A DNA stretch of 64,000 bases from Halorubrum trapanicum (GTDB taxonomy: Archaea; Halobacteriota; Halobacteria; Halobacteriales; Haloferacaceae): NCBI RefSeq assembly GCF_002355655.1, contig NZ_AP017569.1, positions 2,170,001 through 2,234,000 on the forward strand, read 5' to 3'. The notes under the pieces are model-generated. The model saw nothing but the letters and a program-made list of their open reading frames with translations, had not been told where the DNA came from and searched no databases. Shown here piece after piece: positions 16,501 to 63,169 of this stretch; positions within the stretch are counted from its first letter, which is position 1, and every line of letters begins with the position of its first letter. Position numbers and translations under genes: made by a program.

Positions 16501-16571
16501 GCACCGGTAGTGTAGTGGTATCACGCAACCTTGCCATGGTTGCAACCCGAGTTCAAATCTCGGCCGGTGCA
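16501..16571 (+). tRNA. tRNA-Gly (anticodon GCC)
   Basis: A 71-base cloverleaf: acceptor GCACCGG/CCGGTGC with discriminator A, D arm GTAGTGTAGTGGTATCAC, anticodon arm CAACC-TTGCCAT-GGTTG giving GCC, T arm CCGAG-TTCAAAT-CTCGG. CCA is not encoded. An AT-rich box (acttaagtaag) lies 30-40 bases upstream. Its 3' 20 bases are repeated downstream; see the adjacent repeat feature. Confidence 0.97.
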
Positions 16572-16738
16572 TTTTCCGAGCGAAGCGAGGAAAATCGCCG
16601 AGAGAGATTTGAACTCAGAAAGACGCAGCCCGCGCAGCGAACGGAGTGAGCGAGCAGGACCGTCTTTCCCTAGTTCAAATCTCGGCCGGTGTATCTTCTC
16701 AAACGTAGTGAGAAAACTCACCAAGAGAGATTTGAACG
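16550..16738 (+). repeat. Duplicated tRNA-Gly 3' end with hairpin units
   Basis: The last part of tRNA-Gly, AGTTCAAATCTCGGCCGGTG (16550-16569), recurs exactly at 16672-16691. After each copy comes a short hairpin (TTTTCC/GGAAAA at 16572-16593; TTCTC/GAGAA after the second) and then the inverted T-arm sequence gagatttgaac (16604-16614 and 16727-16737). Each unit of about 66 bases is thus a nested palindrome, and the two inner stems differ in sequence but both pair. Between the units, GAAAGACG and CGTCTTTC form another stem. It resembles an integration scar or amplified tRNA-tail hairpin. No integrase is nearby. Confidence 0.8.
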
Positions 16739-16743
16739 CTATC

Positions 16744-17146
16744 AGTTATTTATAAATCGACGGTAGATCGGCGGAACACACCTCCAAAGCCCCAGCCGCG
16801 AGGCGGACGCACACTCGCTGTCGCCCGAAAATCAGAGATTTTCGGGATGACGAGAGAGCTTTGCTCTCTCGAACCACGCTCCTCACTCGGTCGCTACCGC
16901 TCCCTCGTTGCGGTGCTTGCATCGTCTGCGCCCGCCTCGCGGCTGCCCCTTTGAGTCCCACCCCGCCCAGCACCGCACAGCACCTCACACCTCCCCAACC
17001 TCGTCGCTGGCACCCTCCGCTTCGCTCCGGGAGCCAGCGACTCCCTCGCGCGTGCTGCTCGGCCGCAGGGCGGCCTCGCAGGCACGCGCCACCGCCACGT
17101 TCATTTATAACTATCTCACACCGGGTCACAGTGCCATTTAAATACC
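16744..17146 (+). repeat. Structured dispersed repeat, copy 1
   Basis: No credible gene is present. The segment is homologous, in inverted orientation, to 62805-63146. It begins with a TATA-like tatttataaatcg and ends with catttaaata. A 13-bp long-range stem pairs AGCCGCGAGGCGG (16794-16806) with 16932-16944, extended across a CCCC/GCCC internal loop by CAAAG/CTTTG. Inside are two perfect hairpins found only in this copy (16824-16846 and 16851-16871). Downstream are a 9-bp hairpin at 17003-17041 and a nested one at 17048-17089 (GCGCGTGC/GCACGCGC). It is either a structured RNA gene or a non-autonomous mobile element. Confidence 0.8.
16747..16759 (+). promoter_or_regulatory. TATA-like element facing into repeat copy 1
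   Basis: TATTTATAAATCG is shared exactly with the outer end of repeat copy 2. It lies about 26-38 bases before the first conserved stem base, the spacing expected between an archaeal TATA box and a transcription start followed by a short leader. It is a predicted promoter only. Confidence 0.45.
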
Positions 17147-17258: not shown

Positions 17259-18425
17259 ATGGTCGAGATTCTTCTCCTCGTCGGGATCGCGGTGGCGGCG
17301 TTCGTCGGATACAACATCGGTGGGGCGACGACGGGGCCTGCGTTCGGGCCGGCCGTCGGCGCGGACGTGTTGTCGAAGGCGGGCGCGGCGGCGCTGATGT
17401 CGGTGTTCTTCTTCGTCGGCGCCGGGACGCTGGGCCAGCGCGTGGTGACGACGCTGGGCGAGGACCTCGTCACCGGCGCGAACGTGTTCACGCTGGAGAC
17501 GAGCATCATCGTCCTCTTCTTCATCGGCGGCGCGCTGTTCGTCGGCAACTTCGCCGGCGTGCCGGCGTCGACGTCGATGACGGCGGTCGGCGCCATCGCG
17601 GGGCTGGGCATCGCGACGGACACCCTCGACTGGGCGGTGATGGGCGAGATCGCGATCTGGTGGCTCGTCGCGCCGATCATCGGGTTCTGGGTGTCCGGCG
17701 TCGTCGGTCGCTACTTCTACTCGGCGATCGACCGCTGGGTGGCGATCGAAAGCACGGAGGGCGCGCTGTTCGAGCTCGACCGCTCCGGGCTCATTCCGCG
17801 GCCGGTCCTCGGCCCGAACACGACGCGCCGGGAGCTGACGGGCGGGGTCGTCGTCATCGCCATCGGCTGCCTGATGGCGTTCTCCTCGGGCACCTCGAAC
17901 ATCGCGAACGCCATCGCGCCGCTCGTCGCGCTCGACGGCGTGGAGATGACGCCGATGATCCTCCTCGGAAGCGCGGCGGTCGCGGTCGGCGCGTTCACCA
18001 TCGCCCGCCGGACGCTCGACACGCTCGGCAACGACATCACCGACCTCCCGCTGACGGCCGCCATCGTCGTCGCGGTCGTCTCCTCGGGGATCGTCATCAG
18101 CCTCTCGGCGGTCGGCATCCCCGCCTCGTTCGTGATCATCGCGACGATGTCGATCGTCGGGCTCGGCTGGGGCCGCGCGACCCGCACGGTGACCGTGCGA
18201 CAGGGGATCAGCGGCGAGAAGGAGCCGACGGTCTCGGTCGGCGCGCTCGCGGCCGACGAGATGCCGGAGATCGGCGAGGGCGACGCGAGCGATGTCCCCT
18301 CGGCGTCGGACCTGTTCAATCCGGCCACGAGCGCGCGGGTCGTGCTGATGCAAAACGTCGTGCCGATCCTCTCGACGGTGGGCGCGCTGGTGACGTTCAC
18401 CGCGCTCTTCGCGTTCGTCTGGTAG
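17259..18425 (+). CDS. Inorganic phosphate transporter, PiT family
   Basis: A 388-residue membrane protein with about ten helices in two homologous halves. The PiT signatures are GYNIGGATTGPAFGP (near residue 20) and FSSGTSNIANAIAP (near residue 210), each positioned in its half, flanking a long cytoplasmic loop (YSAIDRWVAIESTEG). PiT proteins import phosphate with protons or sodium. The first signature deviates from the usual GANDVANAFG. The ATG at 17259 gives MVEILLLVGI; an ATG 21 bases upstream is less likely. The gene stands just downstream of repeat copy 1. No PhoU-like gene is next to it. Confidence 0.9.
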   Translation: MVEILLLVGIAVAAFVGYNIGGATTGPAFGPAVGADVLSKAGAAALMSVFFFVGAGTLGQRVVTTLGEDLVTGANVFTLETSIIVLFFIGGALFVGNFAGVPASTSMTAVGAIAGLGIATDTLDWAVMGEIAIWWLVAPIIGFWVSGVVGRYFYSAIDRWVAIESTEGALFELDRSGLIPRPVLGPNTTRRELTGGVVVIAIGCLMAFSSGTSNIANAIAPLVALDGVEMTPMILLGSAAVAVGAFTIARRTLDTLGNDITDLPLTAAIVVAVVSSGIVISLSAVGIPASFVIIATMSIVGLGWGRATRTVTVRQGISGEKEPTVSVGALAADEMPEIGEGDASDVPSASDLFNPATSARVVLMQNVVPILSTVGALVTFTALFAFVW

Positions 18426-62804: not shown

Positions 62805-63146
62805 CGATATTTAAATGAGGGTGAGCAGTCACTGTAATCGCTTATAAAAGGCGGTGCGGTGGCGCGTGCCTGCGAGCGGCCGCCCGTGGCGGCCGCGAGA
62901 CAGCACGCGCGAGGGACGCGGCGACCGGAGCGAAGCGGAGGGAGCCGCGAGGCTGGGGAGGCGCGAGGTGCTGTGCGGTGCGGGGCGGGACTCAAAGGGG
63001 CAGTCGCGAGGGCGGCGCAGGCGACGCAAGCACCGGAAGGAGCGAACGCAGTGAGCGACTGAGGAGCGCAGCGAGCGTGCGCCGCCCTCGCGACTGGGGC
63101 TTTGGCGGTGTTCGTCGCCGATCCGTGGACGACGATTTATAAATAG
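62805..63146 (-). repeat. Structured dispersed repeat, copy 2 (inverted)
   Basis: Homologous in inverted orientation to 16744-17146. The long-range stem is 17 bp here: minus-strand AGTCGCGAGGGCGGCGC (plus-strand 63080-63096) pairs with its complement at 63001-63017, again flanked by CAAAG/CTTTG. Local hairpins are at 62918-62948 (CGCGGC/GCCGCG over the conserved CCGGAGCGAAGCGGAGG-like loop) and at 62862-62910 (GCGCGTGC/GCACGCGC) with an inner 9-bp stem at 62876-62896. The two extra hairpins of copy 1 are absent. The ends have ttataaa- and tttataaat-type TATA-like motifs. Confidence 0.8.
63134..63146 (-). promoter_or_regulatory. TATA-like element facing into repeat copy 2
   Basis: The minus strand reads CTATTTATAAATCG across 63146-63133, the same element as at the outer edge of copy 1. 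It is directed into the repeat. It also lies close to the 3' end of the CBS gene, so it does not serve that gene, which is read away from it. Confidence 0.45.
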
Positions 63147-63169
63147 CTCTTAGAACGACCCGATCCGTC

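Follow-up and report, generated by a model that had tools for sequence, protein, structure and literature searches.

A high-copy, probably MITE-like repeat of Halorubrum chromosomes with covarying, almost perfectly palindromic stems

Interspersed non-coding hairpins that reach high copy number and show compensatory changes are familiar from the double-hairpin elements of fungal and algal organelles and from the REP, BIME and REPIN sequences of bacteria; these belong to other genomes than the repeat considered here, are built of shorter units and are not known to have ends of the IS5 type. Nearer at hand are the MITEs of haloarchaea, for which the portion of the source used here gives, in Haloquadratum walsbyi, five families with 55 elements in each of two strains (PMC3119063). 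As that portion describes them, these MITEs are like our repeat in being short and without transposase, in having the inverted ends of a resident transposon and target duplications, and in being moved in trans, as we would propose below (PMC3119063). They are unlike it in that the Halorubrum repeat is present in about 180 copies on one chromosome and throughout its genus, carries a cargo of covarying hairpins subject to block turnover, and has mostly lost its ends while keeping that cargo (compared with the same portion of PMC3119063). PATEs and SMRs, as the same text presents them (PMC3119063), are likewise palindrome-bearing or short non-coding mobile elements that insert into each other, but PATEs have no inverted ends and SMRs no target duplication, whereas young Halorubrum copies have both. 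Finally, halovirus HF2, one of the viruses of Halorubrum, has class I intergenic repeats that carry TATA boxes and act as viral promoters; at 56-58 bp they are close in length to the 57-bp tandem units of our repeat, and no motif matching it is seen in them within the part of the source considered (PMC8707807).

The window, by which we mean the whole 64,000-nt stretch of Halorubrum trapanicum DNA that was analysed (contig NZ_AP017569.1, positions 2,170,001 to 2,234,000), holds two copies of this repeat (Table 1). Copy 1 is flanked by a tRNA-Gly gene (16501-16571) on one side and, on the other, by a gene at 17259-18425 that from its sequence we take to be permease-like. The first-pass annotation had described long stems, an inner hairpin and inward TATA-like ends in the two copies. 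Both long stems are real, although their lengths need revision: P1 of copy 1 pairs CAAAG-CCC-CAGCCGCGAGGCGG with CCGCCTCGCGGCTG-CCC-CTTTG, giving 5 + 14 pairs, separated by a CCC/CCC internal loop, instead of 13 bp, and the stem of copy 2, CAGTCGCGAGGGCGGCGCA/TGCGCCGCCCTCGCGACTG, has 19 bp and not 17. The hairpin that had been placed at 17003-17041 is hairpin 2 of Table 1, with its pairing kept between the copies (GCTGGC/GCCAGC in copy 1, CGCGGC/GCCGCG in copy 2), and the inward ends are indeed TTTATAA boxes. Folding of the copy 1 stretch gives z-scores of -8.3 on the + strand and -6.9 on the - strand, with none of 100 shuffles equally stable, and a covariance model of the right half, which counts copy 1 among its 46 training sequences, finds exactly two matches in the window, namely copies 1 and 2. 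The left end of copy 1 corresponds to a single unit of ~57 bp that stands in tandem in many other copies. Beyond tRNA-Gly(GCC), a hairpin-rich stretch at 16573-16745 includes degenerate copies, direct and inverted, of the 3' end of this tRNA (GTTCAAATCTCGGCCGGTG / GAGAGATTTGAAC); related but different expansions occur at this place in several other Halorubrum species (L191, L193, L196, L197).

Table 1. Features of the two repeat copies, in window coordinates
Feature	Position	Strand	Description
Left end of copy 1	16744..16784	+	TATA-like box TTTATAA 16749-16755, then leader
P1 5' arm (long stem)	16785..16806	+	CAAAG, CCC internal loop, CAGCCGCGAGGCGG
Double-hairpin insert in P1 loop	16821..16878	+	CGAAAATC..GATTTTCG; GAGAGC..GCTCTC around GATGACGAGA
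P1 3' arm	16932..16953	+	CCGCCTCGCGGCTG, CCC internal loop, CTTTG
Variable C-rich linker	16954..16983	+	ACCGC/ACAGC-like units; read off the sequence
Right module	16984..17087	+	CTCACACCTCCCCAACCTCG - hairpin 2 - CTCCCTCGCGC - hairpin 3; covariance model R1, 96.4 bits
Hairpin 2	17004..17040	+	TCGCTGGC..GCCAGCGA
Hairpin 3	17048..17089	+	GCGCGTGC..GCACGCGC, inner stem present
Right TATA-like box TTTATAA	17104..17110	-	Reads inward
ATTTAAATA motif	17136..17144		Also in right flank of young full-length copies
Copy 2	about 62842..63148	-	TATA-like boxes 63137-63143 and 62842-62848; P1 5' arm from 63104
Copy 2 right module	62864-62967	-	Covariance model R1, 51.4 bits

The two copies belong to a large family. 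A 16-base anchor, allowed at most one mismatch, has 183 matches (control 3), which puts the number of copies in the host chromosome at about 180, or about one per ~16 kb. Copy 1 used as query returns at least 82 matches from the host genome of 3.08 Mb in three contigs (with the best 40 of 253 candidates scored), and 62 copies fit a strict gapped pattern, every one of them on the 2.84-Mb contig that forms the main replicon (control 0; chance 0.006). Matches are present in all 34 same-genus genomes and in 53 of the 59 genomes overall, those outside the genus being short and partial. A search of the order with a pattern for the right module is positive in 38 of 293 genomes and in 6 of 87 genera: all 19 sampled Halorubrum genomes have between 7 and 131 occurrences (the host 123), one genome of another genus in the same family has 71, and one genome of another family has 52. 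The covariance model, built from 46 host copies, has 24 matches in 20 of 20 loci from other genera, with E as low as 5e-9; these loci were picked by pattern, so the match tests the surrounding structure and not its frequency. In the distant families the right module is joined to other left parts and ends at the base of hairpin 3; for the distant family, a single hit suggests relatives resembling Halorussus. A plasmid search with the window copy gave four partial matches, the phage collection no match to the element, and the viral contigs no match to the right-module pattern. Rfam, searched over the element at the gathering threshold and at E up to 5, reports only the window's two tRNAs and no family match, and no description of the Halorubrum repeat was found in the open-access literature searched. 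Both the statement that no described family fits and the expectation of further copies in Halorubrum genomes have thus held.

We suggest that copy 1 is probably an old copy of a high-copy, non-autonomous, MITE-like Halorubrum element with palindromic cargo. This reading draws on the ends of the youngest copies. Two copies in the host, C1:2623016 and 2788487, match each other over the stretch between CGGGAGTGAG and CACTCCCG, an inverted repeat that, by a tolerant match, 12 of 163 copies carry at both ends and 17 at one end at least; a longer form is present in 26 of 52 genomes of the genus, and 19 of the 20 places fetched for this outer repeat flank a core, the last lying at a contig end. On both sides the outer ends run to GGCTCTGTTGAAATCC, and a young copy measures about 0.58-0.83 kb, set between GGCTCTGTTGAAATCC inverted repeats and flanked by 8-bp target duplications. 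The clearest, L315, is complete at 644 bp, and its IS5-type ends are flanked on either side by AATTTCAT, a perfect 8-bp duplication; it has no transposase, being mostly hairpin sequence and too short to hold an IS5 transposase of ~275 aa together with the ends. The same ends, with the duplication CCAAGTGC, enclose an IS5-family transposase (NF033579, E 1.8e-64; PF01609) at L311 on contig 3 of the host genome. Both ends are recognisable in 15 of 254 core occurrences (overlapping loci being counted repeatedly), and the target bases of these 15 agree at 8/8 once (L315), at 7/8 in five, at 6/8 in two and at fewer in seven, figures that favour duplications in that the best target-matching pair was kept wherever there were several end candidates. 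L294, one of the lower seven, has seven target bases common to both sides but shifted by one. IS5-type ends were not recognised in most copies, nor in copy 1 of the window. When the 644-bp unit is used as a blast query, several haloarchaeal plasmids match its end or the double-hairpin insert, and few match the core. Two further units share these ends. One, L310 (G000 contig 3, 27115-30553), is a 3.4-kb stretch with the duplication GAGAATTT that contains an IS4-type transposase and an FMN-dependent dehydrogenase-like gene, and is possibly a composite or nested element. The other, L314 (G062:C1:427093-427554), is a 462-bp unit with the duplication TTGCGATC and an AT-rich interior unrelated to the core, which indicates that IS5-type ends carry more than one cargo.

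A different reading is that the repeat is a family of structured non-coding RNA genes, transcribed from the inward TATA-like boxes and folding into P1 and hairpins 2 and 3, in which selection on the RNA makes the stems covary. The covariation on which it would draw, and which the earlier annotation had anticipated, is very strong. Across 128 distinct P1 arm pairs (163 anchors yielded 148 parsed copies, of which 131 were used for pairs), 97.9% of positions are Watson-Crick, against 84.8% when shuffled and a maximum of 86.2% in 500 shuffles, and cells changed on both sides number 228 against 63. Hairpins 2 and 3, aligned in 46 of the 76 copies found, are 95.7% paired against 83.3% in shuffles, with 89 both-sides-changed cells against 28.5 and a covariation score of 0.283, where shuffling gives 0.101 and sliding the partners no more than 0.041; because the references were selected with an expression in which the framework is fixed, invariant framework columns are uninformative. 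The RNA reading is also in keeping with the conserved internal loops and framework, with homologues that have palindromic hairpins in distant haloarchaeal families, and with TATA-like boxes at a fixed distance: the left box is present in 124 of 154 copies and stands exactly 39 bp before CAAAG in 87. One or more extra upstream units are found in 72 of the 154, with a spacing of 57 bp in 86 of 105 tandem spacings. No clear factor-binding motif stands out beside the left box in base counts judged by eye. In the distant genome G204, units with GAAAGCCCTCGG recur at four loci, mostly at 48-51 bp, ahead of a similar stem, from which the tandem-arm layout may be old.

What the stems do not show is the tolerance of G.U pairs expected of a structured RNA. 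Hairpin 2, in 158 copies with 100 distinct alleles, has 1222 Watson-Crick, 0 G.T and 2 A.C among 1268 pairs, in a helix count that stops where mismatches outweigh pairs and leaves terminal wobble uncounted; in the 46-copy alignment its helix has 57 two-sided changes and no one-sided ones. P1 has 6 G.T and 30 A.C among 2304 cells, with 19 of the A.C at one position, whereas tRNA stems from the same loci, taken as a control, have 50 G.T in about 857 pairs (5.8%). There are three exceptions, namely four U-G cells in hairpin 3 of the 46-copy alignment, an alternative P1 top in ~40 copies with a constant G.T on the plus strand, and P1 pair 8, whose lopsidedness (19 C.A against 0 T.G cells) would fit an RNA from the minus strand, where it would read as G.U. 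Moreover, the P1 top is inverted between intact arms in 3 of 135 decided copies, and this is a DNA event, which weakens the RNA reading. The scarcity of wobble pairs and the inversion favour DNA palindromes over RNA selection. The original argument from covarying stems to selection for structure therefore stands in its first half only, as the exchange of perfect palindromes in blocks also yields covariation.

The comparison of sites points the same way. Among 86 ortholog pairs, 2 share the same hairpin 2, and none of 265 cross-site pairs does (27 of the 30 copies could be parsed). From one related species to another, orthologous copies differ in their hairpins, which come from a similar pool, so hairpin identity is not kept as an RNA gene family would lead one to expect. 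Occupancy is patchy as well: the permease site has two full-length and four partial copies in 30 Halorubrum loci (L190-L216, L221, L226, L232), some of which reach too little upstream to be judged, and the four sites of L130, compared with loci of 18 other genomes of the genus, hold a copy at the same place and in the same orientation in some and none in others (site B in G016 and site D in G008, for example). That sites are shared while hairpins differ indicates that the sites are old and the hairpins quickly replaced as blocks. With no Rfam match, and no TATA-like boxes seen in the distant-family copies inspected, we consider an RNA gene family rather unlikely. The first proposal for this locus had been a transcribed RNA or a mobile hairpin element; its mobile half is borne out by the inverted ends, target duplications and IS5-type partner of young copies, while its RNA half is weakened by the near lack of wobble, by the block turnover of hairpins and by the inversion of the P1 loop.

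The position of the copies between genes raises another possibility, that of a domesticated chromosomal element, a palindrome-built intergenic terminator or insulator or a site for a nucleoid protein, for which transposon ends would explain the spread only. All 160 placed copies are intergenic, and they are in modest excess between convergent genes (53 of 160, against 126 of 576 neighbouring gene pairs; P 0.005) and depleted between divergent ones (19 of 160 against 109 of 576; P 0.04), with genes called by a simple caller on segments chosen for holding copies and with the pairs that flank copies included in the background. A bias to the main replicon and a framework kept at sites common to several species would also suit a chromosomal role. 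The patchy occupancy, in contrast, implies that single copies are dispensable, and with the enrichment this modest we hold such an element to be distinctly unlikely. A coding explanation was rejected, as none of the 163 cores lies within a called gene.

The double-hairpin insert of the P1 loop is missing in most copies. As a module (two palindromes around GATGACGAGA, ending TCTCGAACCAC) it occurs in unrelated contexts (L062, L064, L065, L066) and is spread over haloarchaeal families and plasmids (hits H12-H24), where its hairpins also vary. As to an IS605 origin of the insert, the four neighbouring frames scanned contain no transposase, and none is annotated beside it in the two plasmids viewed. 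Other nested modules are seen in host copies, such as C1:579348, 1144898 and 1693799 and L130 6893-7191: one in the C-rich linker, CCGGAAGACG..GACTTCCG with CTCCCGC..GCGGGA, and one between hairpins 2 and 3, GCGAGGGACC..GGTCCCTCTGGCAGCCGGCG..CGCCGGC. Near-terminal hairpins, nested hairpin inserts and a right module whose limit in distant families is the base of hairpin 3 would recall a palindrome-associated element of the IS200/IS605 type (PATE) or a REP-like element moved as single-stranded DNA, but the true inverted ends and 8-bp duplications of young Halorubrum copies, and the lack of any IS605-type protein in the four frames scanned beside relatives of the insert, make this highly improbable.

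We therefore return to the MITE-like element. An IS5-type transposase would have moved the family in trans, with a cargo that consists of a framework with P1, a C-rich linker and two hairpins, and whose stems are almost perfect Watson-Crick palindromes. Recombination or gene conversion among the ~180 copies would replace entire hairpins in blocks, and the two arms of a stem would be kept identical through template correction at the DNA level; together, the two processes would let the stems covary with no wobble intermediate in between. Once inserted, an element would lose its transposon ends by decay and keep its framework, whether as a functional sequence or as one homogenised by conversion; if functional, the framework would most simply serve as a palindrome, either shaping DNA or terminating transcription in the space between genes. 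Because both ends are recognised in 15 of the 254 cores, with a choice of ends that favours duplications, a MITE origin is something we infer for most copies, copy 1 included. The location of all 62 strict matches on the main replicon is unusual for a transposon and speaks against this origin. Given the right module in distant families, the core may also predate its IS5 packaging and may have been captured by IS5 ends only in Halorubrum. More tentatively, one might envisage a few hundred cassettes of fixed framework, with perfect DNA palindromes continually rewritten by arm-to-arm copying and block exchange, as a haloarchaeal system older than the genus that IS5-type ends captured and spread in Halorubrum; we regard this as conceivable, if doubtful.

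Covarying stems are a standard sign of functional RNA. With very strong covariation, almost no wobble and turnover of whole hairpins, the present family lends itself naturally to testing how genome scans can separate DNA palindromes from RNA genes. At about 180 copies, each some 0.3-0.4 kb long, the repeat accounts for ~2% of a Halorubrum chromosome. It offers hundreds of natural replicates, in a highly recombining archaeon, for measuring the origin, correction and exchange of palindromes.
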